Shown here in pieces: positions 368 to 64,000 of a stretch of DNA of 64,000 nt. The stretch covers positions 1 to 64,000 of the forward strand of contig CAITKP010000092.1 of assembly GCA_903892995.1 (NCBI GenBank). The letters are read 5' to 3'. Under the pieces are notes generated by a model. That model made no database searches. It was not told where the DNA came from and saw only the letters and a list, made by a program, of their open reading frames with translations. The DNA comes from an uncultured Campylobacterales bacterium. GTDB taxonomy: Bacteria > Campylobacterota > Campylobacteria > Campylobacterales > Sulfurimonadaceae. The first letter of the stretch is position 1. Each line of letters starts with the position of its first letter. Both the position numbers and the translations under genes were made by a program.

Positions 368-850
368 ATGGAATGTTTATGCGGATCGAAAAGAGATTTT
401 GAAGCGTGTTGTGGAGCGATTATAAAGGGAACTAAAGTTGCACAAACCCCAGAAGAGTTGATGCGTTCACGTTATAGTGCGTATGTTTTAGCTGATGGAG
501 ACTATCTTGTAAAAAGTGCTACAAAAGAGAACCGTTATGAGAGTGATATTGCACTGATCGAAGAGTTTTGTAAGAATGTTAAATGGTTGAAGCTTGAACT
601 CTTACATGTAAAGTGCCCTTTGGATGTAAGTGAAAATGGGTCTGATGGGATTGTAGAGTTTAAGGCTTATTATCTAGAAAACAGTGAAATTGTACTTCTT
701 CATGAAAGAAGCAGTTTTGTCAAAATTGATGGAGTTTGGGAGTATGACAAAGGTGTTTTTATCAACTCCAAAATCGAAAGAAATGAACCTTGCCCCTGTG
801 GTTCTGGCATAAAATATAAAAAATGCAAGAAGCACTTAATGGCGTATTAA
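368..850 (+). CDS. ychJ: YchJ family protein with N- and C-terminal SEC-C metal-binding motifs
   Basis: CLCGSKRDFEACCG at the N-terminus, RSRYSAYVLADGDYLVKS, C-terminal EPCPCGSGIKYKKCKKH. Confidence 0.85.
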   Translation: MECLCGSKRDFEACCGAIIKGTKVAQTPEELMRSRYSAYVLADGDYLVKSATKENRYESDIALIEEFCKNVKWLKLELLHVKCPLDVSENGSDGIVEFKAYYLENSEIVLLHERSSFVKIDGVWEYDKGVFINSKIERNEPCPCGSGIKYKKCKKHLMAY

Positions 851-892
851 TGAAGCTTTCGATAGAATCGCGATATTTAAATTGCCAATTTT

Positions 893-2533
893 TTGGCGAT
901 ACCAACAAGAGAGAAGAAGATGCTAAAAACGATTAATCTTACAAAAAGATTTGGGAACAGAATTTTATTTGAGAATATCAATATTAAACTTGACCGCCAT
1001 AAAAGATATGGTCTTATCGGTGCAAATGGTGCTGGAAAGACAACATTTTTAAATATTTTAAGCGGCGAAAACAAAGAGTACGAGGGCGATATCATCATCG
1101 GTTCTGGTTTAAAAGTCGGGATTTTGGGACAAAACCAGTTCGCGTATGAAAACTACACAATTATGGATGCCGTTTTATTTGGAAATAAACGCCTTTACGA
1201 TGCAGTAAAAGAGAAAGAAACGCTTTATGAAACAGGCGATTTTGAAGATGATGCGGTAAACAACCGTTTAGCAGAGTTGGAGATGATCTGTGTAGAAGAG
1301 GATCCAACTTATGAGTATGAGATTAACATTGCAAAAGTGCTTGAAAATGTTGGGATTCCCGCTGAAAACCATTACGAACTTATGTCAAGTTTGAAAAGTT
1401 CTGAAAAATTCAAAGTTTTACTTGCGCAGGTTCTTTTTCCAAAACCAGATATTTTGTTCCTCGATGAGCCTACCAACAACCTTGATATCGAGACTATCTC
1501 TTGGTTGGAAGATGAGTTACAACGCCATACTGGAACTTTAGTGGTGATCTCTCACGATAGACACTTCTTAAATGCAGTTGTTACGCATATTTTGGATGTG
1601 GATTATCAAAAAATCCGTGAGTTCACTGGAAACTATGATGAGTGGTATATCGCAGCAAATGTCATAGCAAAACAGATGGAAGCAGATAATGCAAAAAAAC
1701 TCAAAGAGAAAGAGGATTTAGAGGCTTTCGTTCGCCGTTTTAGCGCAAATGCTTCAAAAGCAAAACAAGCAACTTCACGTCAAAAACAGCTTGAAAAACT
1801 CAATATTGAAGATATCAAACCATCTTCACGCCGTGATCCAAGTATCGTATTTAAATCAAAACGCCAGATGGGAGATGAGGCTTTATTTGTAGATAATATC
1901 TCTCACTCTTATGGAGATTTGGAAGTTTTAAAAAATATGACACTTCGCATCGAACCAGGTGAAAAGATCGCACTTATCGGTGCCAATGGTGCTGGGAAAA
2001 CGACTTTATGTAAAATCATTATGGAAGAGATGAAGCCAACAAGCGGAACTGTTCAGTGGGGTGCAACGATTGAACAGAGCTATTTTCCACAAGATACAAC
2101 CGACCAGATCAAAGGCGATGGAACACTTTATGAGTGGCTTCGTGGATATGATCCAAAACGTGAGATTGCTGAAATACGCAACTGTTTGGGACGTATGCTA
2201 TTTTCTGGAGAGCAGCAAGAAAAATCAGTTGAAAAAATCTCAGGTGGGGAAAAACACCGTATGATGCTTTCAAAAATGATGCTAGAACAAGGAAACTTTT
2301 TAGTTTTAGATGAGCCAAGTAACCACCTTGACCTTGAGGCAATTGTAGCTTTGGGTGAGGGACTTTTCAACTTTGATGGAAACGTTGTCTGTGTCTCTCA
2401 TGACCGCGAGCTTCTTGATGCTTTTGCTAACCGTATTATTGAAATTATGCCTGGTGGTCAGTATATAGACTTCAAAGGTACATACGAAGAGTACGCAGAA
2501 GCAAAACATAATGGAACTTTAGAGTTTGCATAA
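893..2533 (+). CDS. ABC-F family ATP-binding protein (YbiT/EttA-like); real start probably ATG at 920
   Basis: Two Walker A motifs (GANGAGKTT), LSGGE-type signatures, LDEPTNNLD and LDEPSNHLD, no transmembrane segments. Confidence 0.93.
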   Translation: MAIPTREKKMLKTINLTKRFGNRILFENINIKLDRHKRYGLIGANGAGKTTFLNILSGENKEYEGDIIIGSGLKVGILGQNQFAYENYTIMDAVLFGNKRLYDAVKEKETLYETGDFEDDAVNNRLAELEMICVEEDPTYEYEINIAKVLENVGIPAENHYELMSSLKSSEKFKVLLAQVLFPKPDILFLDEPTNNLDIETISWLEDELQRHTGTLVVISHDRHFLNAVVTHILDVDYQKIREFTGNYDEWYIAANVIAKQMEADNAKKLKEKEDLEAFVRRFSANASKAKQATSRQKQLEKLNIEDIKPSSRRDPSIVFKSKRQMGDEALFVDNISHSYGDLEVLKNMTLRIEPGEKIALIGANGAGKTTLCKIIMEEMKPTSGTVQWGATIEQSYFPQDTTDQIKGDGTLYEWLRGYDPKREIAEIRNCLGRMLFSGEQQEKSVEKISGGEKHRMMLSKMMLEQGNFLVLDEPSNHLDLEAIVALGEGLFNFDGNVVCVSHDRELLDAFANRIIEIMPGGQYIDFKGTYEEYAEAKHNGTLEFA

Positions 2534-3357
2534 TGGAAAAAGAGTATAAAAACTTTTTAGGACTTGGGATCGCAGGAAATTTTGCCCTGCATCTCAAACA
2601 AGCTGGAGAACTCGAAGATTTTAAAGATATCATCACAGCTGATGAGGCCGCACCAAAGGGAGTCTTTCCTTTTTATATCCCAAATAATCCCACATTTTTA
2701 GGTACGTATCCACTTTCACATGACACTATTTTACTTCCCAAAGAAGAGGTAAATGTTCAAGCAGAACCCGAAGTCGGGCTTACATGTAAGCTCACTTACA
2801 AAGATGGAAAAATAGACTCAATCACTCCAACGCACTTTGGTGCTTACAACGATACCTCGCTAAGAAAAAATGCTCCTAAGATCAGCATCAAAAAAAATTG
2901 GGGAGAAAACTCAAAAGGGATCAGCTCTGGGCTTATTGAGATAGAGAGTTTTGCAGAGGGTTCAAATATCGACAATTACCGCATCTGCAGCTTTTTGCGT
3001 AGAGGCGGAAATGTATTTCGTTATGGCGAAGATGTCGCACTCACGGGATATAGCTATTTTCATGAAACACTTTTGGATTGGATCAAAAATCAGATCAATA
3101 CGCAAAAAGATTTTGGACCGCTTCAAGATGTTTTAGGGCTTATCAAAGAGGCATCCTATCCGCAGGAGATGCTCATTTCCATCGGTGCAACACGCTATAC
3201 TGAGTATGGAGAGCACACATTTTTACAAAGTGGCGATGAGGTGATCGTGGCTTTGTACGATAACAATCTTTACTGTAAAAACCCAATTTTTTCTAAAATA
3301 GTCGCAGGCGATTATGAGAATGAGGGAATGAGCGTTTTGTCTCAAAAGGTAGTTTAA
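2533..3357 (+). CDS. Conserved hypothetical protein (DUF5718-like)
   Basis: Full ORF overlapping the upstream stop; FYIPNNPTFLGTYPLSHDTILLP segment resembles this family from memory. Confidence 0.6.
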   Translation: MEKEYKNFLGLGIAGNFALHLKQAGELEDFKDIITADEAAPKGVFPFYIPNNPTFLGTYPLSHDTILLPKEEVNVQAEPEVGLTCKLTYKDGKIDSITPTHFGAYNDTSLRKNAPKISIKKNWGENSKGISSGLIEIESFAEGSNIDNYRICSFLRRGGNVFRYGEDVALTGYSYFHETLLDWIKNQINTQKDFGPLQDVLGLIKEASYPQEMLISIGATRYTEYGEHTFLQSGDEVIVALYDNNLYCKNPIFSKIVAGDYENEGMSVLSQKVV

Positions 3358-7516: not shown

Positions 7517-7692
7517 AAAAAATCCTTTGATGATAAAGTGAGTGAAAATAAAAATTTTACGATTATAACCATTTGGAAGTAAAAGTAAAATATTGGCTTA
7601 CATGTAAGGGTGTTTATATCTGTTCTATGGATAGAATGTGTTACTATTGCAGTGATTTACGGGAGTAAATAGTTAGATGAAAGGGTCAAAAA

Positions 7693-9057: not shown

Positions 9058-9434
9058 AGTGAAGTGTTAAACCCTTTTAAACTGTTTTGCAGTTTGACAT
9101 AAAAGGGTTCAAACGCTGGAAGATCAAGCGAAGCAACTCGTAGTTTTTCTCCCCACATTGGGTTTGGAAAGTGGCTGTCGTTTTCATATCTTGCCATTAC
9201 ATGTAAGTGAACACGAGGAAGCATATTCGCAAAAGATGCCATATTTATTTTGTGAGGTTGGAAGTAGTTTATCATCTCAAACTCTACGATATCATAGAGT
9301 TCAAAAAGTTTGAGTCGAAGCGGCTTTGGAAGGTCGCTGAGCTCTTTGTAGGGGTTTTGTGTAAAGATCTTAAGCCAAGGAATCTCACTTTTTTCTATCT
9401 CTATAAAAAAGTGTTCATCCTCGTAGATTTTCAT
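9054..9434 (-). CDS. HIT family protein
   Basis: HLHVMARYENDSHFPNPMW plus upstream histidine-triad-like context. Confidence 0.7.
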   Translation of the reverse strand: MKIYEDEHFFIEIEKSEIPWLKIFTQNPYKELSDLPKPLRLKLFELYDIVEFEMINYFQPHKINMASFANMLPRVHLHVMARYENDSHFPNPMWGEKLRVASLDLPAFEPFYVKLQNSLKGFNTSL

Positions 9435-14980: not shown

Positions 14981-16176
14981 TTGTTTTTGCCTTTAAAACT
15001 ATATGTTAAATTTATTTGCGCTCGGTTTGAGTTGTTTTGAACATTTTTTGGATCAATTTTATCACTTTCTTTTACATAGATTGCAGAGAATTGAAAATCA
15101 TTATTGATATTATATTCAAAACCGATGTTTTGCTCAATAATATCTGCTTTTTCTCCAAGGTAATTCTTTTTACCTACAAACTCTCCAAGAGCATAGAAGA
15201 GTTTAAAATTTTTAAAATCGTAGCTTAGAGCTGTACTGAAAGCTTCACTTTGACGTTGTGCACTTATATTGTCTAAAATCATCGTATCCATACTTGTATA
15301 TAAAGTTCCTCCGCCAAAACCGCTAAAACTGCTTTTTCCTTTGTCGCATTTTGCTTTGTTATATGCTAGGTTGATTGATAATCCATAGAGTTCCAATCTG
15401 CTGAGTACTCCATAGATCTGTGCATTTATTGTGCTTTTTGAAAGCTCTTGCTGGCTTATGTATTGTGCCCTTACATGTAAGACGCTATCATCGCTTACAT
15501 GTAAGTGAACTCCTGCATCAGTATAAAAAATATCTGCAAGATCACTAATCTCATAAAGCCAAATACTCGCGTCTATAGATTCACTGCTAAATCCTACTGA
15601 GCCAAGCCAAGCACCACTTTTACCAACTGGCGTAAAACCTTTTTCAAGTCCCGCATCATAGCCTTGCCAGTTTAAAATCTTCCCAGCCACAAGTGTGAAC
15701 TCATCACTTTTATAGGTCGCAATAGTCGCTTCAAATGTATTTTTCACCATCCGAATAGGATCACTATTTGCAAATGGAGTGTCAATAACTTGTCTTCCTG
15801 TACGAAGATTGAGATCTTTATAATTATAGTTAATATAGGCTTCGGCAAGTTCTGTATAGTTACCTTTTGTAGATGAAAGTTCACTGTTTTGTTTTGTGTT
15901 TGAAACCTCTCCTGTTGCAAAATTTATATCTTGTGATATATAAAAAGCGCCAACTGCATTAAACCCTTCAAATGGAGCAGTTTCATATTTGAATTGTCCG
16001 CCTAAAGCAGTCGCATAGTTGTTCTCACTATGGGCGTTATCAAGTTGTTTTTGAATATATGTTGAAGCGATTTCAACGGAGAAAAATCCATTTGTGACAC
16101 TCTCACTCAACTGAGTCTGTGCGAATAGATTAAGAGAAAATAGACTAAATAATAAAACATTTACAAAAGCTTTCAA
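14977..16176 (-). CDS. Opr family outer-membrane porin
   Basis: Signal peptide, YINYNYKDLNLRTGRQVIDTPFANSDPIRMVKNTFEA typical of Campylobacterota OprD-like porins; C-terminal aromatic strand. Confidence 0.8.
   Translation of the reverse strand: MKAFVNVLLFSLFSLNLFAQTQLSESVTNGFFSVEIASTYIQKQLDNAHSENNYATALGGQFKYETAPFEGFNAVGAFYISQDINFATGEVSNTKQNSELSSTKGNYTELAEAYINYNYKDLNLRTGRQVIDTPFANSDPIRMVKNTFEATIATYKSDEFTLVAGKILNWQGYDAGLEKGFTPVGKSGAWLGSVGFSSESIDASIWLYEISDLADIFYTDAGVHLHVSDDSVLHVRAQYISQQELSKSTINAQIYGVLSRLELYGLSINLAYNKAKCDKGKSSFSGFGGGTLYTSMDTMILDNISAQRQSEAFSTALSYDFKNFKLFYALGEFVGKKNYLGEKADIIEQNIGFEYNINNDFQFSAIYVKESDKIDPKNVQNNSNRAQINLTYSFKGKNK
15471..15504. repeat. Two TTACATGTAA palindromes 24 bp apart in the porin gene
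   Basis: TTACATGTAA at 15471-15480 and 15495-15504. Confidence 0.9.
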
Positions 16177-22096: not shown

Positions 22097-23272
22097 ATGA
22101 AAAATCTTTGGTCTGATGAGGAAGTAAAAAAATTTGAGACTGATTTGGATCTTCGGGTTTATACCTCAAACCTTTTGGGTCAGAGTGATGAGTTAGTCCT
22201 TCACGGCGGCGGAAACACTTCTGTAAAAGTGGAAGTTGATGATGAGGATATTCTCTATGTCAAGGGCAGTGGCTGGGATTTAGTGAGTATAAAAAAAGAG
22301 GGTTTTGCACCTGTGAAACTCGAAGCACTTTGGGAGATGGCAAAATTGCCGACTCTCAGTGATGCAAATATGGTGATGCTTCAAAAAGCTGCGATGATCG
22401 ATAAAGAGGCTCCAAACCCTTCAGTAGAAGCGATTTTGCACGCTATTATCCCTTTTAAATTTGTCGATCACACTCACGCTGATGCTGTTGTGACACTCTC
22501 AAATTCGATCAATGGGATCGAAACTATTCAAAAACTCTATCCAAATTTTTTGATCATTCCTTATGTGATGCCAGGATTTGTGTTGGCGCAAATGATATAC
22601 AAAAAAACTAAAGAGCTTGACTGGTCAAAGTGTGCGGGGATCATTCTGCACAATCACGGTATTTTTACCTTTGATGATGATGCAAAAAAATCTTACACAA
22701 AAATGATCGACGCAGTCACAAGAGCGGAGCAGTTTTTAAGTGAAAACGCAAAAATAACACTCAAACTCTCAAGTTCAAAAAAAGAGATTGATACCCAAAA
22801 ACTCCAAAAAATAATCTCACAGCATAAAGGCACACCAATATGCTTACATGTAAACAGATCAAATCTAGCCTATACATATGCTTCGCAAAAAGAGCTTTCA
22901 AGCTTTACATGTAGAGGTGTTTTGACTCCTGAACACATTATACGAACAAAGAGAAAACCGCTGGTGCTTCTTGATGATGATTTTGAGGGTGCAATTGAGC
23001 AATATATTGCAGAGTATCAAGAGTATTTTGAAACCTTTGCTCGTGATGAAATATGCCTAAATCCCGCTCCAAACTATGCGGTTGTAAAAGATTATGGGGT
23101 TATCGCTTTTGGCAAAGATGCAAAAGAGGCCTCTATTATCAATGATATCGTAGAACATACAATGCTTGCAGTTTTAAGAGCGGATATGCTTGGCGGATAT
23201 AAAAGTATCAGCCTCACAGAGAGCTTTGCCATGGAATACTGGGAACTTGAACAGGCAAAATTAAGGAAGTAA
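22097..23272 (+). CDS. Class II aldolase/adducin family protein, resembling the aldolase half of bifunctional rhamnulose-1-P aldolase/dehydrogenase
   Basis: LLGQSDELVLHGGGNTSVKVE...LYVKGSGWDLVSIKKEGF...APNPSVEAILHAIIPFKFVDHTHADAVV...HNHGIFTFDDDAKKSY; ends without an SDR domain. Confidence 0.88.
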   Translation: MKNLWSDEEVKKFETDLDLRVYTSNLLGQSDELVLHGGGNTSVKVEVDDEDILYVKGSGWDLVSIKKEGFAPVKLEALWEMAKLPTLSDANMVMLQKAAMIDKEAPNPSVEAILHAIIPFKFVDHTHADAVVTLSNSINGIETIQKLYPNFLIIPYVMPGFVLAQMIYKKTKELDWSKCAGIILHNHGIFTFDDDAKKSYTKMIDAVTRAEQFLSENAKITLKLSSSKKEIDTQKLQKIISQHKGTPICLHVNRSNLAYTYASQKELSSFTCRGVLTPEHIIRTKRKPLVLLDDDFEGAIEQYIAEYQEYFETFARDEICLNPAPNYAVVKDYGVIAFGKDAKEASIINDIVEHTMLAVLRADMLGGYKSISLTESFAMEYWELEQAKLRK

Positions 23273-24410
23273 TCATGTCATATCTCATGGCGATCGATGC
23301 GGGAACGGGCAGTGTAAGAGCGGTAATTTTTGATACTTTGGGCAATCAAATCTCGGTCTCTCAAGCAGAGTGGACACATCTGCAAGAGAGCGGTGTGCCA
23401 AACAGTATGGGTTTTGATACACAAAAAAACTGGAGTCTTACATGTAAGTGTATTCAAGAGGCTCTTTCTCTTGCAAAACTTCAAGGAGAGGATATCATCG
23501 CTCTCTCTGCTACAAGTATGCGTGAGGGAATCGTGCTTTATGATAAGGCGGGCAAAGAGCTTTTTGCAGTCGCAAATGTGGATGCAAGAGCGCACAATGA
23601 AGTGAAATATCTCAAAGAAAATTTTGTCGGTATCGAGGAAGAGTTTTATCAAATCTCAGGACAAACTTTTGCTTTGGGTGCACTTCCTCGTCTTATGTGG
23701 CTCAAAAACAATAAACCTGATCTTTATGAAAAAGTAGCACATATCTCGATGATAGGGGATTGGATACTTTATAAACTCAGCGGAGTACTTGCCACTGATC
23801 CAAGCAATGGCGGAACAACGGGAATATTCTCTTTAAAGCACAGAGATTGGGATGCTTCTATGGCAAAAAAAGTGGGTCTCAAAGACGATATTTTTCCTCC
23901 GTGTTTGGAGGTTGGGACTTTAATGGGATGCTTACATGTAAGAGCTTCACAAGAAACAGGACTCTCTACAAACACAAAAGTTGTGATGGGAGGAGGCGAT
24001 GTTCAGCTTGGAAGTGCTGGGCTTGGCGTGGTCAATATTGGCGATGTAGCAGTGCTTGGCGGTTCATTTTGGCAGCAAGTTGTCAATATTCCAAGCCAGA
24101 TAAAACCTCCAAAAGATATGCGTATCCGTATAAATCCGCATGTGATTGCTGGACAATCTCAAGCTGAGGGGATCACCTTTTTCTCAGGACTTATTATGCG
24201 CTGGTTTCGGGATGCTTTTTGTGAAGCAGAAAAGTTTGAAGCAAAAGAAAGAGGGATCGATACTTATGCTGTTTTAGAGGAAAAAGCTGCAAAAGTTCCC
24301 GCAGGATCTTATGGAATTATCCCGATATTTTCAGATGCGATGAACTACAAAAATTGGATGCACGCCGCTCCTAGTTTTTTAAATTTATCACTTGATCCGC
24401 TTACATGTAA
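22844..24410. repeat. Cluster of TTACATGTAA palindromes in the aldolase-lsrK genes
   Basis: Exact at 22844, 23438, 23932, 24401; one-mismatch TTACATGTAG at 22905. Confidence 0.9.
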
Positions 24411-24837
24411 CCGTTTTTCAATGTTTCGTTCCCTGCAGGAGAATGCCGCGATTGTATCGAGTATCAATCTTGAAAATATCGCCGCATACAGTGGCATTGA
24501 GTTTGATACTATTGTTTTTGCTGGAGGTGCGAGTAAAGGGCATCTATGGCCTCAGATACTCAGTGACGTTACGGGATATAAAGTGAAAATTCCAAAAGTT
24601 ACAGAAGCTACAGCTTTGGGCGCTGCAATGGCGGCAGGTGTGGGCGCTGGGATCTATAAAGATATGATCAGCGCCTCAAAAGAGCTTGTTGCTTGGGATA
24701 GAGTATATGAGCCAAACAGGGAAAATAAAAAGCTTTATGATGCGCTCAAACAAAAGTTTTTAAAGGCATATGGCGCACAGTTGAAACTCGTAGAGGAGGG
24801 TATAACAGACTCTATGTGGAAGGCACCAGGACTCTAA
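23275..24837 (+). CDS. lsrK: FGGY carbohydrate kinase, autoinducer-2 kinase LsrK-like
   Basis: Close to E. coli LsrK as recalled: YLMAIDAGTGSVRAVIFD, NVDARAHNEV, GGGDVQLGSAGLGVV, GGSFWQQVVN, MRWFRDAFCEAEK, SMWKAPGL C-terminus. Confidence 0.85.
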   Translation: MSYLMAIDAGTGSVRAVIFDTLGNQISVSQAEWTHLQESGVPNSMGFDTQKNWSLTCKCIQEALSLAKLQGEDIIALSATSMREGIVLYDKAGKELFAVANVDARAHNEVKYLKENFVGIEEEFYQISGQTFALGALPRLMWLKNNKPDLYEKVAHISMIGDWILYKLSGVLATDPSNGGTTGIFSLKHRDWDASMAKKVGLKDDIFPPCLEVGTLMGCLHVRASQETGLSTNTKVVMGGGDVQLGSAGLGVVNIGDVAVLGGSFWQQVVNIPSQIKPPKDMRIRINPHVIAGQSQAEGITFFSGLIMRWFRDAFCEAEKFEAKERGIDTYAVLEEKAAKVPAGSYGIIPIFSDAMNYKNWMHAAPSFLNLSLDPLTCNRFSMFRSLQENAAIVSSINLENIAAYSGIEFDTIVFAGGASKGHLWPQILSDVTGYKVKIPKVTEATALGAAMAAGVGAGIYKDMISASKELVAWDRVYEPNRENKKLYDALKQKFLKAYGAQLKLVEEGITDSMWKAPGL

Positions 24838-24927
24838 ATTTTACTGTAATCTTTTTTCTAATGATTTTCTCATCTATATTGAATACTATTTCAGAATAAT
24901 ATAGATTAAATCTCATAAAGAGTTCCA

Positions 24928-26118
24928 ATGATTCGTAAAATTTCAATTATCTTTGCCCTGTTGTCTCCTTTGCTGTTGCGTGCACAAACTTTAGACTCTT
25001 TTGTCGATAATGCCTATAACAACTCGGTGAGTAAAATAGAGTTGCAAGAAAAAACAAAAACACTCGAGTATCAAAAAGAGGCCTATCTATCGGTAGAACC
25101 TTTACTTTTTGAGAGTGGTATTCGCAATATCAAAGCGAATGATGCAATCAATAATGGCAATGAATATAGTGTCATGCTAGCTACTTCGATTAAAAATCCA
25201 ATAATCAAAAAATCACGAATACAAGAGTATGCCTCTGAAACTAAAATATTAGATTTTGAATCAAATATTTCTCGAAAATTACTTTTAATTTCGATAAAAA
25301 ATATATATCTGCAAGCGTTACTTGATAAAGAGATTACACAGATATATATGTTAAAAAATGATGCGGCAAAAAAAGCTTTAGAAGCTGCCAAAGCTAAAAA
25401 ATCGATGGGTCGAATCTCACAAATGGAGCTTTCCCGTTTTGAAGTGGACTATAAAGTTGCACTGCAAGAGTCATCAAAAGCCGCTCATGCGTATGAGGAG
25501 AAACAAAATCTATTACGTAACTTGACCTTGAGTGATGAGGATATTGTCTTGGATGATCTGTTTTTTTACTATATACGCGAAAATAATATTGAAAATGCAC
25601 TCAATGATTCTGTTTTTTTTCAATTGTATGACGCAAAGAATGAAAGCCTTTTAAAACAGATGCAAACACTCCATAATTCAAAGATAGAAACAATTAATTT
25701 TGGTGTCGGAATGACGCAAGAAGTGACTCAAAAAAGTATAGACTTTAAGCTCTCATTTCCTTTATCATGGGGTGAAAAAAATGAGAAACAAATAGCAGCA
25801 CTTATGACACAACAAAGCTCTCTTCATCAGCAAAAAGAGCTCTCACGCAAAAAAATTTCCCATTATATCAAGCAGGCATTGAGTCATTTAAGTGAGATTG
25901 AAAATATGATTCATGACTCGCAAGAGATAGAAAAAAGAAATAAAAGTTTATTTGAGATGTCTGCAAAAGGGTATGAAAATGGGGCTGTAGCTCTGTTTGA
26001 ATACCTTGAAACGAGAAGCCGCTTTTATGGCGCATCCATAGAAACAATGAAAACAAAGCAGATGTATGTAGAAGAACTATCAAAACTTGAAGAGGAAACT
26101 GGAAGGATATGGAAATGA
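24928..26118 (+). CDS. TolC/CzcC family outer-membrane efflux protein
   Basis: Signal peptide, coiled-coil-rich 396 aa; directly upstream of RND adaptor and pump. Confidence 0.8.
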   Translation: MIRKISIIFALLSPLLLRAQTLDSFVDNAYNNSVSKIELQEKTKTLEYQKEAYLSVEPLLFESGIRNIKANDAINNGNEYSVMLATSIKNPIIKKSRIQEYASETKILDFESNISRKLLLISIKNIYLQALLDKEITQIYMLKNDAAKKALEAAKAKKSMGRISQMELSRFEVDYKVALQESSKAAHAYEEKQNLLRNLTLSDEDIVLDDLFFYYIRENNIENALNDSVFFQLYDAKNESLLKQMQTLHNSKIETINFGVGMTQEVTQKSIDFKLSFPLSWGEKNEKQIAALMTQQSSLHQQKELSRKKISHYIKQALSHLSEIENMIHDSQEIEKRNKSLFEMSAKGYENGAVALFEYLETRSRFYGASIETMKTKQMYVEELSKLEEETGRIWK

Positions 26119-35240: not shown

Positions 35241-35241
35241 T

Positions 35242-38504: not shown

Positions 38505-40539
38505 TTTCTTTCAAGGCTCTTTGAGAAATAAACTTCTTGTTATCTTGATGGCAGTGGGATTTTTGCCATTTATAACTCTTCTTATTTATATGCTTTTCTT
38601 AAGTGAGACAAAAATAGTTAATAAGATCATTGTCGAGCAGTTTGATCGTGCTCAAGTAGTTATGAAACTCATAAATAATAATCTGCTTTCTTTAAATAAT
38701 GAAGTAAATTTTATTAGTTCTTTAGATTTGATGGATGATATATTAGCCGATGATATTGATAAAAGGATCGCGCATCTCTTAACACGAAAATCACGTGATT
38801 TAGGGAATAATAATCTGCTGTTTGTCACTGACATTGAGGGAAATATTATCTCATCTTCTAGTAAAAATAGTAGTGAAAATAAAAAAATTGATATCCGATC
38901 TCTTTTGAGCAAAAGCAACGGAGAGTTTATCAAAGAAAATAGTCTCTATATATATTCAAAAATAGATTCCTCCTTTGATAAAAAAAGGAGAATTGGCTTT
39001 TTGATTTTAAAGTATGACTTAAATAATTTAGATATCTATTTAACCCATCAAAATAGTATTCATTCCTATATTATTAACCCTCAAAACAATTCACATATGG
39101 GAGAAGAGTTATTACTTCCTTTTGATTTTAAACAAACAAGTGGGAGTATCATCAATCAGAAATATGTCGTTGTGTATCAAAAAATACCATCTATTATGAA
39201 GGGTTGGTATATTGTTTATGCTGTTGATAAAAATGTTGCATTGGCATTTTTATATGACTTTATTCGATTTATGCTTTATATCTCTGTTCCAATATTTTTT
39301 GTGATACTTTATCTCTCATTTAAAGTATCAAAGGGGATAGTCAAACCTATAGAAGAGCTTACTTTGATCACCGATAATATTATCTATACTCGCAACTATA
39401 CAACCCAACTTGAAATACAAACCCAAGATGAGATCGCAATTTTGAGTCACTCCTTTAACAATATGCTCAAAACAACCTCTTTGGCATTAAATAAACTTGA
39501 AGAAGAGAGCCGAGCAAGGTTACAAAGGTTTATACAGCTTATAGAGACATTTAATCTAATCATTCAAACAAAGACTGAAGAAGATTGTATAGAAACTTCT
39601 ATAGAACAGATTAAACTTTTGACCCATAAAGTTGATCTTCATTTTCAAAAAGAGAGTTTAAAGCGAACAGAAAATGAGCATATATTTTTACATGTAAGCA
39701 ATTTTGAAAATAATTCTATACTTTACTTTGGTGCTATTGATCTTGGCTTTGAAAACTATGCTGATGAAAATGAGAAAAAGTTTTATAATTCAATTGCAAA
39801 TATGATCACTCTTCAACTAGATAGAATTGGTCTTATCAATAGAACGATGTCCGCATCTCGTGCAAAATCTGCATTTATATCAAATATGTCGCATGAACTT
39901 CGAACGCCGCTCAATGCGATTATAGGTTTTTCTCAATATATGATCACTTATGAAGAGCTTCAAGATGACCAAAAAGAGGTTATGCTCAATATAGAATCAT
40001 CCGCACACTATCTTCTTGAGATGATAAATGAGATCCTTGATATTGCTAAAATAGAAGCTGGAAAAATGGAAGCACATCCCCAAATGACAGATATCGTAGA
40101 ATTGGTGGAGAGTTGTTATAAGATGCTTCAGCCTTTAGCTGAAGATAAAGAATTGGCTTTTACCCTCAATATTGATAAATTTAAGAAACAATTATATATG
40201 ACTGATCCAAAAATGTTTAAACAAGTCCTTTTAAATCTTATCTCTAATGCTATTAAATTTACGCAAGAGGGCTATGTAAATATAGAGCTTTTAAGTGATG
40301 CGAAGAATATTATTGTTATTGTCACAGATAGTGGAATCGGTATATCTGCGGAAAATATGGATTGGCTCTTCAATGATTTTACTCAAGTTGAAAATGTGAT
40401 GCAAAAGCAGCATAAAGGAACGGGTCTTGGATTGTCACTTAGTAAAAAATTATCTCAAATATTAGGCGGAGATGTCACCTTGATAAGTGAAGGAATTGGA
40501 CATGGCACAAGCTCGAAGTTTTGTATTGCAATGGCTTGA
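38494..40539 (+). CDS. Membrane sensor histidine kinase (HAMP plus HisKA/HATPase)
   Basis: Two TMs, ISNMSHELRTPLNAIIGFSQ H-box, NLISNAIKFTQEG, GTGLGLSLSKKL. Confidence 0.9.
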   Translation: MVFNFFQGSLRNKLLVILMAVGFLPFITLLIYMLFLSETKIVNKIIVEQFDRAQVVMKLINNNLLSLNNEVNFISSLDLMDDILADDIDKRIAHLLTRKSRDLGNNNLLFVTDIEGNIISSSSKNSSENKKIDIRSLLSKSNGEFIKENSLYIYSKIDSSFDKKRRIGFLILKYDLNNLDIYLTHQNSIHSYIINPQNNSHMGEELLLPFDFKQTSGSIINQKYVVVYQKIPSIMKGWYIVYAVDKNVALAFLYDFIRFMLYISVPIFFVILYLSFKVSKGIVKPIEELTLITDNIIYTRNYTTQLEIQTQDEIAILSHSFNNMLKTTSLALNKLEEESRARLQRFIQLIETFNLIIQTKTEEDCIETSIEQIKLLTHKVDLHFQKESLKRTENEHIFLHVSNFENNSILYFGAIDLGFENYADENEKKFYNSIANMITLQLDRIGLINRTMSASRAKSAFISNMSHELRTPLNAIIGFSQYMITYEELQDDQKEVMLNIESSAHYLLEMINEILDIAKIEAGKMEAHPQMTDIVELVESCYKMLQPLAEDKELAFTLNIDKFKKQLYMTDPKMFKQVLLNLISNAIKFTQEGYVNIELLSDAKNIIVIVTDSGIGISAENMDWLFNDFTQVENVMQKQHKGTGLGLSLSKKLSQILGGDVTLISEGIGHGTSSKFCIAMA

Positions 40540-42694: not shown

Positions 42695-43890
42695 GATCAC
42701 TTTTTTCTGCAAAAACAAAGTACGCCATTCACGGTTTTTTTATCTCCATCGCCACTACAATCGCCGAACCATCGACGATTTTACCGCTTATGGTGAGCTT
42801 TTTTGGAGGCTCACATCTACTCATAGGCTTTTTTACTTCGCTGATTAAAGGCGGTTCTATTTTAGTACAGCTTATTGGCGCTTTTTATGCGCAAAGCTAC
42901 CCTCGGATGATGCCCTATTTACATCGTGTTTTTGCCGCTCGCTTTTTATCATGGTTTGGAATCGGTTTTGTCATCTTTTTTTTTGGTGAGAATCATCCAA
43001 ATGTCGCACTTGCAAGTATAGGAATCGGACTTTTTATCTTCTCTTTTTCCGCTGGATTTGGCACGGTCTATTTTAATGAAGTCGTTGCTAAAGTGTTTGC
43101 ACATAAAGAGCGCGGCCGTGTGATCGCCAATAGGCAATTTTTTATGGGGCTTGGTTCTATCATCAGCGGAGGAATCGCTGGATATGTGATCTCAATCGTC
43201 GATGCACCCGATTCTTTTGGGATTTTATATATGCTTAGCGCACTGCTGATGCTCTTTGGTATCTATGCATTTGCGACTATCAAAGAGCCTATCAAAAATG
43301 AACTCTCTCAAAAAGAGGAGAAGTTTCGTCATTTTTTAAAAAATAGTTTGCATACACTCAAAGCAGATAAAGCACTCCAACGTCAAATAATCGTTTATCT
43401 GATTTCATACACCTATCTTCTCTCTTTGCCTTTTATCATCCTCGATGCAAAAGAGCATATAAAGCTCAGTGGTTTTGTGATTGGCGGACTCATTAGCGCA
43501 CAGATGGCGGGTGGGATGCTTAGCAATATTTTGTGGGGCGTGATCTCCTCAAATCGAGTCATTGTCTGGAGTGGATTTGGCTTACATGTAAGCGCAATCT
43601 TACTGCTACTTTATAGCAAAGATCCTTGGATCTATTTTGTGGTATTTTTTCTTATTGGAGGCGCAATTGATGGGCTTCGTCTGGCTTTTTCAAATATGAT
43701 TTTGATCCTAGCTCCTCAACATAAACGCCCCGTTTACATAGCTTTGCAATCAAATCTCACATCTATTGGACTTTTTTTCCCTATACTGGGCGCTTTAATT
43801 GTAGATGGTTTTGGATATGAGACTCTTTATGGAGTGACGATTTTTACTCTGTGCGTGGGATTTTTGTTCTCTTTAAAGATGGAGAACTAG
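42691..43890 (+). CDS. MFS transporter
   Basis: 12-TM hydrophobic pattern, HKERGRVIANRQFFMGLGSIISGGIAGYV. Confidence 0.8.
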   Translation: MRSLFSAKTKYAIHGFFISIATTIAEPSTILPLMVSFFGGSHLLIGFFTSLIKGGSILVQLIGAFYAQSYPRMMPYLHRVFAARFLSWFGIGFVIFFFGENHPNVALASIGIGLFIFSFSAGFGTVYFNEVVAKVFAHKERGRVIANRQFFMGLGSIISGGIAGYVISIVDAPDSFGILYMLSALLMLFGIYAFATIKEPIKNELSQKEEKFRHFLKNSLHTLKADKALQRQIIVYLISYTYLLSLPFIILDAKEHIKLSGFVIGGLISAQMAGGMLSNILWGVISSNRVIVWSGFGLHVSAILLLLYSKDPWIYFVVFFLIGGAIDGLRLAFSNMILILAPQHKRPVYIALQSNLTSIGLFFPILGALIVDGFGYETLYGVTIFTLCVGFLFSLKMEN

Positions 43891-44711: not shown

Positions 44712-45349
44712 AATTTCAAAGAAGCGAACTACTTTTTGGCGAGAGTTTCAAGAAACTTCAAGATGCAAAGATCCTGCTTTTAGGCGTTGGCGGGGTTGGA
44801 AGTGTGTGTTTGGATTGTTTAGTGCGCACGGGCATTACTGATATTACAATAGTTGATTGCGACACCTATGATGAGACAAATCAAAACCGTCAGATGTGGT
44901 CAGAACTCCATCTTAGTGAGTCAAAAGTAGAAGCCCTCAAACAGCATTATCCAAGCGTAAAAGCCCTACATGTAAGGGTTGATAAAGAGTGGATTGACAG
45001 TGTGGATTTTGATGCGTATGATCTGGTTTTGGATGCCATTGATGATATCCACGCCAAGCTCTATTTGGCACAAAAAACATATAAAAAGCTCATCTCTGCT
45101 GTGGGAAGTGCAAAGAGACTTGATCCAACAAAAATAGAAGTGGCGACCATCTGGAAAACACACGGAGATAGATTTGGCGCAAAGATACGGTATGAACTTA
45201 AAAAAAGAAAGTTCGATAAAAACTATACTGTTATCTTCTCAAGCGAGCCAGCTCTTATCAAAGAGAAGGGGAGTTTTATGGGTGTAACAGGCGCATTTGG
45301 CTTTGCGATGTGTTCTCAAGCTGTCCTTAAACTCACAGGAAAAAAATAG
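44702..45349 (+). CDS. ThiF/MoeB/HesA-family E1-like protein (TcdA-like)
   Basis: ILLLGVGGVGSVCLDCLVRTGITDITIVDCDTYDETNQNRQ. Confidence 0.85.
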   Translation: MALKFQRSELLFGESFKKLQDAKILLLGVGGVGSVCLDCLVRTGITDITIVDCDTYDETNQNRQMWSELHLSESKVEALKQHYPSVKALHVRVDKEWIDSVDFDAYDLVLDAIDDIHAKLYLAQKTYKKLISAVGSAKRLDPTKIEVATIWKTHGDRFGAKIRYELKKRKFDKNYTVIFSSEPALIKEKGSFMGVTGAFGFAMCSQAVLKLTGKK

Positions 45350-45606
45350 TGGATTTTAAAGAATTAGAGCCTTTTGGTGCCACAAGCTGGTGCGAGGGTA
45401 TCATTGGTGATGGTTGTGGCGGAGGCAGAATTTTCTTTACATGTAAGGATGCGCTAAAAACTTATGATCCACTTACAAAAGAGGTGATGACACTTGAGGC
45501 CAATCTCCAAGAGCCACAAAATATCTCAAAAAAAGGGTGCCATCTTTTCTTTACATGTAAGCTTCAAGAGATGGTCTTTGATCTCTCAAAGATGGAACGA
45601 GTATAG
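45349..45606 (+). CDS. Small hypothetical protein carrying two copies of the TTACATGTAA palindrome
   Basis: 85 aa ORF; IFFTCKDALKTY and LFFTCKLQEMV both encoded by the palindrome. Confidence 0.5.
   Translation: MDFKELEPFGATSWCEGIIGDGCGGGRIFFTCKDALKTYDPLTKEVMTLEANLQEPQNISKKGCHLFFTCKLQEMVFDLSKMERV
45437..45560. repeat. Two TTACATGTAA palindromes in one 85-aa ORF
   Basis: Exact at 45437-45446 and 45551-45560. Confidence 0.9.
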
Positions 45607-47146: not shown

Positions 47147-47882
47147 TTTTGAGATAAAAGAGGGCGCATTTATCCTTAGTGATGCGCATTATTCCCCACA
47201 CCGCCCAGAGTTAAGGACTCTTTTACAAGAGATCGATTTAGGGCACCTTCACCCTTCTCAGCTTATTTTGATGGGTGATATTTTTGATACACTTTTTGCT
47301 CCTATTGCTTATACTTTAGATGCTAATGCATCGATGATTGAACTCATAAACTCTATTGCGCAAAAAATGGAAGTGATCTATCTTGAGGGGAATCATGATT
47401 TTTGTTTAGAGGGTGTTTTTGAGAATGTCAAAACTATTCCTCTCTCATCTCAACCGCTTACATGTAAATATCAAAATAAAAAAGTGTTGCTTGCTCATGG
47501 AGATTTTAGTGAGGGTCTGGGATATAAGATATACACCTCGCTTATACGAAGTAAAACTCTATTGACACTGCTTGGATTTATCGACACTCTTGGAAACCAT
47601 TTTATTTTAAAAAAACTAGATAGATATCTACAAAAAAAAGAGGATTGTAACCATTTTGAAAATTTTGAGAGATATATTATCGCTCGATTAGAGCAGAGAT
47701 TTTCGCACAGTTGCGATATTTTTATAGAGGGACATTTTCATCAAAACAGAAGTTTTTTAGTGGGTGATTTTACTTACATCAACCTTGCTGCTTTTGCTTG
47801 TAATCAAAGATACTTTATTGTACAATCTTCACAAGAAGAACAATTATTAGAGGTTAAAACCTCTGCGGAGTCAGGTGAATGA
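47136..47882 (+). CDS. UDP-2,3-diacylglucosamine diphosphatase-like metallophosphoesterase
   Basis: FILSDAHYSPHRPE, LMGDIFDTLFA, YLEGNHDFCLE, LLAHGDF, EGHFHQNR. Confidence 0.8.
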   Translation: MSHSFEIKEGAFILSDAHYSPHRPELRTLLQEIDLGHLHPSQLILMGDIFDTLFAPIAYTLDANASMIELINSIAQKMEVIYLEGNHDFCLEGVFENVKTIPLSSQPLTCKYQNKKVLLAHGDFSEGLGYKIYTSLIRSKTLLTLLGFIDTLGNHFILKKLDRYLQKKEDCNHFENFERYIIARLEQRFSHSCDIFIEGHFHQNRSFLVGDFTYINLAAFACNQRYFIVQSSQEEQLLEVKTSAESGE

Positions 47883-51737: not shown

Positions 51738-52866
51738 AAACTTTTTTATGTCTAAAGAGCTATCTTGTCAATCCTCTTTTTCTTCAAATCAGCTAGAGCT
51801 CTCTCTTGCTGGTACCCTTAATCTTTACACTCTTGTAACTTTCCAAAATGAGATTGAAAAATATCTAGTAAATCTTACAACACTTCATCTCAACTTGGAT
51901 GGACTGCTATCTTTGGATACTGCCTCAGCCATTTATATCAATAGTCTCAAACAATTATGTGATGATAAAAAGATCGATTTTTTGCTTACATGTAAGGATG
52001 AAAAGCTCTTAAAAACTTTAGATACCGTACATGTAATGCATCTTGATTTAGAAATGTTAGTTTATAAAGAACCATCTTTCTTATATAAATTGGGTGAAAA
52101 TTTTGTACTTCGAATGAAAAAATTTAGTGAATTCCTACATTTTTTTGGTCAGATATCTTATGGTTTTTTCTATCTTTTAAAGCATCTAAAATCATTTCGT
52201 TACAAAGAGGTTTTTTTCGAAATAAATGAAAATGCTATCAAAGCTTTTGCCATTGTTGCGGTTACAAGCTTTTTGGTAGGAGTTGTAACAGCATATCAAT
52301 CCTCCGTACAGCTAAAAATCTATGGTGCAAATATTTTTATTGTCGATATGCTTGGAATCTCCATTTTTCGTGAACTCGCTCCCCTATTAACAGCTATCGT
52401 CATAGCAGGGCGCAGCGGTTCCTCATTTACGGCACAGATTGGTGCTATGAAAATCACCGAAGAGCTTGATGCCATGCATACAATGGGTTTTGATCCGATG
52501 CGCTTTTTGGTGCTTCCACGCATTATCGCGTTGATGTTGATGATGCCTTTGCTTATTTTTGTCTCAGATATTGCAGGTGTGCTTGGCGGTATGCTCGTTG
52601 CAAAGCTTGATCTAGGGATTTCCGTATCGCTCTTTTTAGATCGCCTCAATGAAGTTGTCGCTGCAAAACATTTTTTTGTGGGCATCGCAAAGGGGCCATT
52701 TTTTGCATTTTTAATCGCTTCTATTGGGATTTTTAGAGGTTTGATGGTAAGAGATGACACACAAAGTATCGGTACAAATACGACAAAAAGTGTGGTTGAA
52801 TCTATTTTTTCTGTAATCGTTTGCGATGCAGTATTTTCCATTATTTTTACAAATTTGGGCATTTAG
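51721..52866 (+). CDS. mlaE: STAS-domain MlaE-type ABC transporter permease
   Basis: N-terminal STAS-like region; FRELAPLLTAIVIAGRSGSSFTAQIGAMKITEELDAMHTMGFDPM. Confidence 0.9.
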   Translation: MREISRNFFMSKELSCQSSFSSNQLELSLAGTLNLYTLVTFQNEIEKYLVNLTTLHLNLDGLLSLDTASAIYINSLKQLCDDKKIDFLLTCKDEKLLKTLDTVHVMHLDLEMLVYKEPSFLYKLGENFVLRMKKFSEFLHFFGQISYGFFYLLKHLKSFRYKEVFFEINENAIKAFAIVAVTSFLVGVVTAYQSSVQLKIYGANIFIVDMLGISIFRELAPLLTAIVIAGRSGSSFTAQIGAMKITEELDAMHTMGFDPMRFLVLPRIIALMLMMPLLIFVSDIAGVLGGMLVAKLDLGISVSLFLDRLNEVVAAKHFFVGIAKGPFFAFLIASIGIFRGLMVRDDTQSIGTNTTKSVVESIFSVIVCDAVFSIIFTNLGI

Positions 52867-55182: not shown

Positions 55183-56484
55183 ATGGATGAACAGCTCTAT
55201 AAATCTCGCAGAACTACATATCTAGCAAGGATGAAAAAGAGGAGCATTGCGCTCTTTTTTAGTGCGCCATTAAAGACAAGATCCAATGATACAGAGTATC
55301 CATACAGACAAGACAGTGACTTTTATTATCTTACTGGTTTTAAAGAGGATAACTCTGTATTACTCTTAATAAAAGAGAAAAATTCTACTCAAGAGATTTT
55401 ATTTGTTCAAAAAAAGGATCCTACTTTAGAGCTTTGGACTGGCAAACGTCTTGGAGAAAAAGAGGCAAAAAAGAGATTTCTGGTAGATAAAGTTTATACG
55501 ACAGAGGAGTTACATGTAAGGGTAAATAACTCTCTTTTGGGTAAGAAAAAGTTCTATCTTGATCTCGTTTGTGAAGAGAAAAATCTTTTACATGTAAGGA
55601 AATTGATAAAAAAAAGAGTAAAAAAATCTTTATACAAAAAGAGCACGTTACATGTAAGAGATATTTCACAAAAGATGAGAGCTATAAAAACCTCACATGA
55701 GATTGAACTTATCAAAAAAGCACTTATGATTACAAAAGATGCCCACCATAAAGTGATGGCGATGCCAAAGATAGGGAGATTTGAGTATGAACTCCAAGCT
55801 GAATTTGAGTATGAGTTTAAGAAAAATGGAGCGTATAGTGATGCTTATACAACAATCATCGCAGGTGGAGATAATGGCAATACTCTGCACTATATCAACA
55901 ACTCACAAAAGCTCATTGACACAGAGCTGATTTTAATCGATGCAGGATGCGAATATGAGATGTACGCAAGCGATATCACACGGACAATTCCTGTAAATGG
56001 CAAGTTTAGTGAAGCACAAAAAGAGGTTTATGAACTTGTGCTTGCTACTGAGATGAAAGTAATAGAAACGATTCAAGAGGGTGTTTTAAGAAGTGATTTA
56101 CAGCTGATGGCAAGAGAGCTTTTGTGCGAGGGCATGGTTGCACTTGGCATTTTAGAGGGTGATGTCGCAGAGCTAATCAAAGAGGAAAAAGATAGAAAAT
56201 ATTTTCCTCATGGAATAGGGCATTGGATGGGACTTGACGTTCACGATCCCTGTCCATATAAAGATAAAAAAGGCAGAGAGATTCCCCTTGCTGATGGGAT
56301 GGTGATGACAATAGAACCAGGGCTTTATCTGCCTTTGGATGATGCAAATTTGCCAGAGAAATATAGAGGGATTGCGGTGAGAATCGAGGATAATATCTTA
56401 GTGACAAAAGAGGGTTATGAAAACCTCTCTTTTGGTATTGCTAAAACTGTAGAGGAGATTGAAGCGCTCTATTCGCGCACATAA
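55183..56484 (+). CDS. pepP: Aminopeptidase P family / Xaa-Pro peptidase
   Basis: PYRQDSDFYYLTGF, LIDAGCEYEMYASDITRTIPVNGKF, FPHGIGHWMGLDVHD, MTIEPGLYLP. Confidence 0.93.
   Translation: MDEQLYKSRRTTYLARMKKRSIALFFSAPLKTRSNDTEYPYRQDSDFYYLTGFKEDNSVLLLIKEKNSTQEILFVQKKDPTLELWTGKRLGEKEAKKRFLVDKVYTTEELHVRVNNSLLGKKKFYLDLVCEEKNLLHVRKLIKKRVKKSLYKKSTLHVRDISQKMRAIKTSHEIELIKKALMITKDAHHKVMAMPKIGRFEYELQAEFEYEFKKNGAYSDAYTTIIAGGDNGNTLHYINNSQKLIDTELILIDAGCEYEMYASDITRTIPVNGKFSEAQKEVYELVLATEMKVIETIQEGVLRSDLQLMARELLCEGMVALGILEGDVAELIKEEKDRKYFPHGIGHWMGLDVHDPCPYKDKKGREIPLADGMVMTIEPGLYLPLDDANLPEKYRGIAVRIEDNILVTKEGYENLSFGIAKTVEEIEALYSRT
55510..55657. repeat. Three TTACATGTAA palindromes within 148 bp of pepP
   Basis: Exact at 55510, 55588, 55648, each encoding LHVR. 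Confidence 0.92.
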
Positions 56485-56900
56485 CTCCAGCCAGTTAAAG
56501 ACTCTTTAGTTACCTCTTCAAAAGCATCAGAAGCAGCTAAAAAATCGATTACATGTAAAGCAATATAGGGAATAGAATTTTGATCCGCAGCTTTTACTAA
56601 AAGCATCGGCATTGGCGTGTCGTGGGTTGTATTTGCAAAACCTACAGGCATGATTTGGCTCATCACTTCAGCAGATGTACTGATTTTATAATCTTGACAA
56701 AATTTATCAAAAATCATCTCTTTTATCTCTTGTGAAAAATGCTCTTGCGTATTTAAAAATATGCTTACATGTACAGGTGTTTTGGCAAAATGCTCAGGTG
56801 CGGGAGTTGCCATGATAATATATTCAACTCCCTCAAGAAGTGCCTCAATCTCGTTGATTTCTAAATAATGATTTGTTTTAATAGCGTGATGTTGTTGCAT
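56469..56900 (-). CDS. Conserved hypothetical protein
   Basis: 143 aa ORF, no recognised domain. Confidence 0.5.
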   Translation of the reverse strand: MQQHHAIKTNHYLEINEIEALLEGVEYIIMATPAPEHFAKTPVHVSIFLNTQEHFSQEIKEMIFDKFCQDYKISTSAEVMSQIMPVGFANTTHDTPMPMLLVKAADQNSIPYIALHVIDFLAASDAFEEVTKESLTGWSYVRE

Positions 56901-61600: not shown

Positions 61601-61619
61601 CTGATTTCTATCTCCTTAC

Positions 61620-62555
61620 TTAAGGTATGTAAATTTTATCTAAAAGCTCATTGTACTCATCACGCGCATCACTGTCAAGCGTGATACCGCCACCGCTTTT
61701 ATAAACAATCGTGCCATTTTGATTTTCCATAAAACGGATCATCACCGCACTTTGAAAAGAACTTCCATCAAACACGCCAAAAACACCGCTAAAATAGCCT
61801 CGCTCATAATTTTCTATCTCTTGGATAAGTTCAACTGTTTTTCGTTTTGGTGTTCCGCTTATACTTCCAGCAGGAAGAAGCTTTTTTAGGATGTATGAAA
61901 GATTTTCTCTCCAATCATCTGAAAGTTTTGCGACTATTTTTGAGCTTACATGTAAGAGTTTTTTCTCTCCCGCATTGATGAGTTGCGTATAGCGAAATTT
62001 CTCTACCTGTACATCATTTGCGACTATGCCTAGATCATTTCTCAAAAGATCCACGATCATCACATGCTCTGCCATCTCTTTTTCATTTTCTAAAATAATC
62101 TCTTTAGCATTGTTGATAGAAGCGTCGATAGTGCCTTTCATTGGATAGGTTTCAATGATATTGTCTTTGATTGTGATAAATCGCTCGGGAGAAAAACAGA
62201 GAAACTCCTCTTTGTAACGCAACTTAAATGGTGCGTTTGCATAGGTGAAAATCTCTTTAAAACTATGCTTACATGTAAGCTTTGTAGGTGCTGTGAGATT
62301 GAAAAGATAGCTGTTTCCGCTTTTGATATTTTCTATCACTTTATCAAATTTTTTTTTATACTCTTCAAATGAGAGAGGAAATTTTAAAAGCGAAAGATTG
62401 TGTTTTTTATAAGTAAAATTTTCATCGAAACTAAATTCTATATCATGTTCTGCAAGAGAGTTTAGTTCAAAAACATGAAAGTGGGAAGCTTTAAAATCGG
62501 TAAAAAAGAGAAAGGGTTCTCCAGCAGATGCCAGAGAATCAAGTTTATCAAGCAT
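61620..62555 (-). CDS. pabB: Aminodeoxychorismate synthase component I
   Basis: [89 protein letters not shown]. Confidence 0.92.
61946..62278. repeat. Two CTTACATGTAAG palindromes in pabB
   Basis: Exact TTACATGTAA at 61946 and 62269. Confidence 0.9.
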
Positions 62556-63432
62556 TATGTATCAGTTTTTTCAGCACGGCCATACGGATATTGACCCCAT
62601 TTGCAACCTGTTGGAGCACTTTACATCGCTCATCAGCTAAAAGTGCATCATCAATATCGATGTTTCTGTGTACAGGGCCAGGGTGCAGAACGATAATATT
62701 TTTCTCTCCTAAAAGCTCTTTTGTAATACAAAAATCGCTTGCATAATCTTTGAGTGAAGCATAGTTTTGAGAAGAATGGCGCTCTGTTTGTGTGCGAAGA
62801 GACATAATCGCATCCACATTTTCTATCGCTTCTTTAAGATTGTGCGTTGTATGCAGAGATGTTTTTGGCAAAAATTGCGGCGGAGCGACTAAAATCACTT
62901 CCATACCAAAACGAGTGAGGAGTTCGATATTTGAGTTTGCTACGCGTGAGTTTTTGATATCTCCGACAATCGCGATACGTTTGCCTCTCACATCACCAAA
63001 ATGCTCTTTTAAAGTGTAAAGATCTAAAAGTGCCTGCGTTGGGTGCGCATGAGCGCCATCGCCTGCGTTGATGATAGAGGCTTTTGTATGGTTTGAGAGA
63101 ATCTTTGGAACTCCCGCATTTTCATGGCGTACGATGATGGCATGAGGGCCCATCGCATCGAGGTTCATCGCCGTATCTACAAGCGTTTCGCCTTTTTTTG
63201 TCGAGCTTTTTGAAACATCAAGATGCACCATCTCAGCGCCAAGACGTTTTGCAGCGATCTCAAAAGAGCTGCGTGTTCGCGTGGAGTTCTCAAAAAAGAG
63301 AGTGATAATGATTTTATCTTGGAGTATTCTATCAAATCTACCATCGCTAAAGCGTTTTGCATCTGCTAAAATAGCCTCTACTTCTTGTGTAGAAAAGTCA
63401 TCAGTACGGATTAAATGTTGCATTATTGTCTT
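62548..63432 (-). CDS. pyrB: Aspartate carbamoyltransferase catalytic subunit (ORF to 63486; probable start [11 protein letters not shown] near 63423)
   Basis: [53 protein letters not shown]. Confidence 0.95.
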
Positions 63433-63463
63433 CTTTATATCTATTTTATTTTCGAGATTTACA

Positions 63464-64000
63464 TTAAAGATTATACAAGAGTTCACATATCAAATCAATA
63501 TCATCATCCACTTTTAGCACTTGTTGTTTTGTGTGCTCAAAATAGGGCAGAGAAACAGTAGAAAAATTTTCATCATTTTCACGGCAGTTAAAGGCTACTA
63601 AATGCTCTACATGTAAGCCCTCAAGCGCTTTTTTGCTGAGTAAAGTATCGTTGATGCAGCCAAGTGAGCAGTGCGTAACCAAGAGCACTTTTGCATCTAG
63701 CATCTTTATGAGATCGATCATCATCGTATTTGCATCGATGGGGACATATAAACCTCCAGCGCCTTCGATAAGTACGATATCACAAGAAGCTTCCATCGCT
63801 TCAATCGCACGCAAAACAGATTTGAGATCAAAAGCGGTGTTTGAAGAAGCGACAAAAGGAGCCGCAGGGAGCTCATAGGTAATGGGCACGATATCTTCCA
63901 CTTCAAGCGACCAAAGTTTTGGATTGAGAGCCTTAGCACACTCTAGGAGCTCTTCGCCATCTGGTGCATAGCCATCGCTTACTCCAGTTTCAATGGGTTT
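63464..64000 (-). CDS. bioD: Dethiobiotin synthetase, C-terminal part (truncated by window edge)
   Basis: Reverse reading from the edge: [52 protein letters not shown]..., then [16 protein letters not shown]. Confidence 0.88.

Follow-up and report, generated by a model that had tools for sequence, protein, structure and literature searches.

In Campylobacter jejuni, methylation of RAATTY by CtsM decides which DNA transforms. In Neisseriaceae and Pasteurellaceae, the DNA uptake sequences (DUS) and uptake signal sequences (USS) have GCCGTCTGAA-like and AAGTGCGGT-like family consensuses, respectively. Here we describe an iterated palindrome of 10–12 letters with the core TACATGTA, identified in a 64-kb window (the whole stretch analysed, positions 1–64,000 of contig CAITKP010000092.1, assembly GCA_903892995.1) from an uncultured Campylobacterales bacterium. 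The palindrome is real, genome-wide, and lineage-restricted. It is apparently undescribed in this phylum, as no description of the word, or of iterated motifs in these genera, was found in the open-access papers searched. Based on its abundance, dialects, conservation, location, and decay, we consider it a candidate 'self' signal of the DNA-uptake type and assign this reading a probability of roughly 0.57; Campylobacterota would then have their first such signal.

The palindrome shares with DUS (whose receptor is ComP) and USS a number of hundreds to thousands of copies, a largely intragenic placement, dialects among relatives (PMC3630211 for the DUS/USS dialects), inverted pairs at terminator positions (for DUS pairs of this kind, Ambur 2007, as listed by PMC12616744), and fewer copies in imported DNA, the last being based on one island here. 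It differs from both in phylum, in being palindromic rather than asymmetric, and in having an uptake role proposed from sequence patterns. As the TTACATGTAA sequence is unrelated to theirs, the palindrome was not filed in the neisserial DUS or pasteurellacean USS families. Cyanobacterial HIP1 (GCGATCGC) is likewise a short palindrome that reaches extreme frequency and can be extended on either side; here too the outermost bases vary most, and some lineages have lost or replaced the word (PMC4390886). Different from the GC-rich HIP, the present core is AT-rich, belongs to another phylum, forms hairpin doublets at gene ends, and has no tested methyltransferase family common to its carriers. Since neither the methyltransferase link nor the GC-rich form was seen, we did not file it as HIP1. 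The CtsM system is in the same phylum and also involves a short DNA word, but CtsM marks a common site that is not over-represented, whereas the word described here, with its putative uptake role, is itself strongly enriched.

Exact TTACATGTAA occurs 23 times in the window, whereas 100 dinucleotide shuffles yielded 0.11 copies on average and never more than 1. The open reading frames (ORFs) of at least 100 residues contain 20 copies, compared with a mean of 1.03 and a maximum of 5 in 200 runs of synonymous-codon shuffling. The 38 TACATGTA cores of the window comprise the 23 exact copies, 11 one-mismatch forms (CTACATGTAA/TTACATGTAG, 0.1 expected), one CTACATGTAG, and three others. The exact copies extend to CTTACATGTAAG in eleven cases and to GCTTACATGTAAGC in four, and CTTACATGTAAG ranks first among the window's 12-mers under an order-3 Markov model. 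The first-pass annotation of the window had listed the same 23 positions and the same extension counts, had guessed well under one copy per 64 kb by chance, and had named one-mismatch and other variants, all of which are accounted for among the 38 cores. The exact sites, given without strand, and the other features of the window are as follows; (-) marks ORFs on the reverse strand, and G numbers denote genomes in which a site is intact.

602..611, exact site in ORF 368-850 (YchJ/SEC-C protein)
2780..2789, exact site of GCTTACATGTAAGC form in ORF 2533-3357
7598..7607, exact site, intergenic between divergent ORFs 6284-7516(-) and 7693-9057(+)
9197..9206, exact site in ORF 9054-9434(-)
15471..15480, exact site in ORF 14977-16176(-), first of a pair 24 bp apart
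15495..15504, exact site of CTTACATGTAAG form, second of this pair
22844..22853, exact site in ORF 22097-23272
23438..23447, exact site of CTTACATGTAAG form in ORF 23275-24837
23932..23941, exact site of CTTACATGTAAG form in ORF 23275-24837
24401..24410, exact site in ORF 23275-24837, the last one before 11 kb without sites
35428..35437, exact site of GCTTACATGTAAGC form in ORF 35242-36063
39688..39697, exact site in histidine-kinase ORF 38494-40539
43582..43591, exact site of GCTTACATGTAAGC form in ORF 42691-43890
45437..45446, exact site, intergenic (45350-45657), intact in G001, G007, and G002
45551..45560, exact site, intergenic (45350-45657), intact in G001, G002, and G006
47458..47467, exact site in ORF 47130-47882
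51986..51995, exact site of CTTACATGTAAG form in ORF 51721-52866, intact in G001, G007, and G002
55510..55519, exact site in Xaa-Pro aminopeptidase ORF 55183-56484
55588..55597, exact site in ORF 55183-56484
55648..55657, exact site in ORF 55183-56484, intact in G001 and G006
56549..56558, exact site in ORF 56469-56900(-), intact in G001 and G007
61946..61955, exact site of CTTACATGTAAG form in ORF 61620-62555(-), intact in G001, G007, and G006
62269..62278, exact site of GCTTACATGTAAGC form in ORF 61620-62555(-)
44966..44975, tolerated one-mismatch variant CTACATGTAA, one of the 11
11069, 14669, 18684, 22905, 30319, 33350, 42104, 59219, 60573, and 63607, starts of the other one-mismatch forms as listed by the first-pass annotation
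24411..35427, longest site-free stretch (11 kb), holding a CusA/CzcA-type metal-efflux RND operon and plausibly an imported segment

The excess is not confined to the window. The genome it comes from (G000; 2.43 Mb in 107 contigs) contains 756 copies of TTACATGTAA and a single copy of the reversed word. In a 431-kb sample of this genome, TACATGTA words dominate the k-mers, and after masking of these words, only a homopolymer run reaches similar strength. We counted copies in 100 relatives and then in 399 genomes of the order Campylobacterales, in which the TTACATGTAA excess is restricted to family f20 and some genera of family f1. These families probably correspond to Sulfurospirillaceae and Sulfurimonadaceae, respectively, the latter being the family of the window. 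The f20 genomes have 6 to 1,496 copies each. Within f1, the excess is found in genera g1 (48–756 copies), g3, g5, and g6, and in a few species of g2, probably Sulfurimonas (G055 with 340 copies, G266 with 96, and G414 with 77). Sampled genomes of 21 other Campylobacterales families stay at background level, with at most 11 copies. Named carriers include S. diekertiae (1,211 copies), Sulfurospirillum sp. SCADC (1,309), and S. cavolei (411). A close-pair scan of 84,980 species returned, among the matches listed, mostly Sulfurospirillum, Sulfurimonas, and other Campylobacterales.

Several matches elsewhere were set aside. Those in other phyla have 2–5 copies, which is near chance. In the Bacteroidales genomes G111 (35 copies) and G112 (23 copies), TTACATGTAA is not genome-wide but is clustered in tandem-like arrays with a period of ca. 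20–21 bp; in these metagenome-assembled genomes, the arrays lie at loci L002, L106, and L054. Two viral contigs with several copies look like carriers of phage operators around TATCTTACATGTAAGATA, the operator-like palindrome being present 5–7 times in L145, which has terminase genes, and L156. Genome G033 (L308–L310) has a strong repeat of the type TTAAGAGTTAAGAGTTAA with k-mers TAAGAGTTAAGA, probably a local tandem array.

The core of the palindrome is nearly intolerant of change. The main enriched mismatch is T to C at the outermost base (position 1) of the 10-mer, with 45 cases in 431 kb, and position 2 shows zero changes in the same sample. Single and double outer changes occur at about the frequencies predicted for independent half-sites, which suggests a dimeric reader. 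The flanks of single copies cease to be similar at about 14 bp. Within this range the lineages have dialects, including CTTACATGTAAG in the window, CTTTACATGTAAAG in Sulfurospirillum, and GCTACATGTAGC in one species of the genus Sulfurimonas. Specifically, the core is followed by G at the second base in g1, g3, and Kmv14, by A then G in Sulfurospirillum, by G then A in S. cavolei (few sites), by T at the third base in g5, and in G414 by an immediately adjoining G (first base), which yields CTACATGTAG; several of these samples are small, with 10–60 half-sites. In G171 and G095, no further dialect word emerged.

Three g2 genomes lacking TTACATGTAA enrichment carry a different, non-palindromic word. 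CCTCACGCA has 327 copies in G008, 169 in G036, and 266 in G043 (sampled loci L176, L177, and L183–L188), and the reversed control has at most 5. These are the only 3 of the 28 g2 genomes tested in which it is enriched, the others being at about background. Its strand preference is slight and non-significant (27 v 44). Hence, related lineages differ in the iterated word itself and not in its flanks alone.

Most copies of the palindrome are single and lie in coding sequence on both strands. In the window, 20 of 23 copies lie within genes, in agreement with the initial statement that nearly all do, but per kilobase, convergent intergenic DNA is richer than coding DNA. In G000, the density is 0.30 sites/kb in coding sequence, 0.90 in divergent gaps, 0.23 in co-oriented gaps, and 1.92 in convergent gaps, the last being ca. 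6 times the coding density. In Sulfurospirillum G278 (235 copies in 400 kb), the respective values are 0.40, 1.79, 2.34, and 4.04, with a tenfold difference between convergent gaps and coding sequence. Most close pairs lie between genes as inverted doublets; their flanks are complementary and they form hairpins, for example TTACATGTAAggatttttccTTACATGTAA. Per bp, convergent gaps hold 14 times as many doublets as divergent gaps (p = 5e-9). The doublets typically lie 3–50 bp past a stop codon, and in many cases have no clear T-run. The 21–22-bp peak of close pairs was also considered as helical phasing for cooperative binding, but it consists mostly of these hairpins. Spacing is random. Gap lengths look exponential, their standard deviation nearly matching the mean, and around the G278 chromosome 20 samples of 20 kb taken at even intervals have a variance/mean of 0.93 and no gradient.

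The sites force extra Leu-His-Val and Thr-Cys-Lys peptides and thus reshape protein sequence. In coding sequence the word is read as LHV(K/N/S/R) or (F/L)TC(K/N). G278 has 139 coding copies compared with 7.4 after codon shuffling, and its tripeptide counts are 102 for LHV (31 expected) and 51 for TCK (11 expected). These tripeptides are 3–5 times over-represented in carriers, where nearly all LHV are encoded by exact TTACATGTA. The motif-negative G008 has no excess of coding copies and no LHV/TCK excess.

We then inspected whether sites are retained between relatives, using as background the intactness of any 10-mer. In 20 kb aligned across g1, exact sites (up to 10) are intact in 6/10, 4/10, 3/10, and 4/10 cases in four relatives, compared with backgrounds of 12, 12, 7, and 6%. 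Around comEC in Sulfurospirillum, 5/6, 4/6, and 6/6 sites are intact, compared with 41, 21, and 21%. Retention in motif-using relatives is thus 2–6 times background. None of 13 aligned sites is intact in two relatives that have lost the motif, namely 0/7 in G003, a g1 member whose genome count has fallen to 48, and 0/6 in G171 around comEC (81% identity). Orthologous sites are conserved only in lineages that use the motif, which has also been lost in g45. As a presumably imported segment, we examined one low-GC island of G278 with reductive-dehalogenase-type, two-component, and CobD/CbiB genes; its 60 kb contain 15 sites, compared with an expectation of 35 (p = 1e-4). The ca. 50-kb organohalide-respiration region of Sulfurospirillum has been treated as horizontally acquired (PMC8865925), and another paper reports no sign of very recent transfer (PMC7755780).

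If the palindrome is an uptake signal, a surface DNA receptor of the competence machinery would bind it. The receptor may be a minor pilin that either functions as a dimer or recognises each CATGTAA half-site. Free DNA with the palindrome would be taken up and recombined more often, and this biased exchange would spread and repair copies wherever proteins tolerate them. Dialects could arise by co-evolution of receptor and flanks, and copies would decay once the receptor or competence is lost, as may have happened in G003 and G171. ComEC is found in 74/75 genomes, and the presence of competence machinery in carriers fits an uptake role. Several observations weigh against such a signal. Non-carriers have ComEC just as carriers do, and competence genes therefore do not separate the two. 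A variable pair or triple of pilins lies upstream of priA, ispG, and comEC (L341–L354, L359, and L360), but the pair is absent at the comEC locus in G396, G266, G043, and G347. These comEC-linked pilins do not track dialect, as G278 and G257 share a dialect yet differ in their pilins. None of the known uptake sequences is palindromic (PMC1939737), many of these patterns could also come from a protein binding the chromosome, and the conservation tests rest on small samples of 10 and 6–7 sites. Aside from these points, the C-terminal parts of the comEC-linked pilin-like proteins differ sharply between close relatives whose adjacent PriA and ComEC are 93–95% identical (95 and 93%, respectively, between G278 and G257).

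The main competitor is a HIP1-like intracellular site, bound by a dimeric DNA-binding, repair, or nucleoid protein and kept by intracellular selection or biased repair with no uptake, which we regard as unlikely. Like HIP1, the word is palindromic and highly iterated (PMC4390886), its one-base deviations are mostly at the outermost base as reported for HIP1, and changes in one half-site are tolerated about independently of those in the other, which would suit a dimer; the random spacing and even distribution of sites, the absence of the word from close relatives in the same genus, the dialects, the non-palindromic replacement in a sister clade, and the doublets specifically at gene ends speak against it. 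Maintenance by a cognate DNA methyltransferase, whether epigenetic or in restriction-modification, appears improbable. Type II and orphan methylation sites are usually palindromes, and alternate HIPs of cyanobacteria coincide with cognate methyltransferases (PMC4390886), but restriction sites tend to be avoided rather than enriched (PMC4687349) and this one is strongly over-represented. Moreover, PF01555 is absent from motif-rich G006, G055, G012, and G278, PF02086 from G055, and PF00145 from G006, G055, and G079, while PF02384 has only a marginal match in G006. G055 has only PF02384 and G006 only PF02086 plus the marginal match; hence, none of these four families is soundly present in all carriers, type IIG/Eco57I-type enzymes (PF07669) not having been searched.

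The remaining explanations are weaker still. Chi sites are over-represented short words, specific to a species and mostly located within genes, and a palindromic signal read by AddAB/RecBCD would be active in both directions; the slight, non-significant strand bias of the sister word CCTCACGCA would also fit. Known Chi sites are enriched well below the level of the palindrome, which exceeds a codon-aware background at least 20-fold and composition more than 100-fold, and neither hairpin doublets at gene ends nor forced amino acids suit such a signal, which makes it very improbable. MatP and Noc use palindromes of similar length, but a segregation or domain signal of matS, KOPS, or Noc type conflicts with the random gaps, the lack of a gradient along the chromosome, and the absence of the word in sister species, and we give it hardly any weight; strand polarity along replichores is not definable for a palindrome. 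Least credible is a side effect of transcription terminators or a mobile repeat family spreading the word, since only the doublets sit just past genes, while most copies are single and intracoding on both strands with flanks that end by about 14 bp. The first-pass annotation had offered an uptake-type, epigenetic, or chromosome-organising signal. A genome-wide lineage site stands, and the uptake-type reading gains support because of the dialects, the inverted gene-end doublets, the scarcity in imported DNA, the decay in some lineages, and the unrelated second iterated word in a sister clade. The epigenetic reading is disfavoured because none of the four methyltransferase families searched is common to carriers, and the chromosome-organising one because spacing is random without a position gradient.

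Self-specific DNA uptake signals are, to our knowledge and in keeping with the papers retrieved, known only from Neisseriaceae and Pasteurellaceae, and we know of no solution to why cyanobacteria keep HIP1. More tentatively than the uptake reading itself, we suggest that Campylobacterales have a changing set of 'self' words, palindromic ones with at least four dialects and an unrelated non-palindromic one, read by receptors unlike ComP. Uptake specificity may then have re-arisen in palindromic form in a third bacterial group, with word switches within one genus. The palindrome, with its dialects, gain, decay, and replacement, is present in cultivable Sulfurospirillum and in tens of sequenced species, which would make the origin, drift, and death of such signals directly testable. 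It may also provide a practical tag for transforming hard-to-modify organohalide-respiring and sulfur-cycling environmental bacteria.

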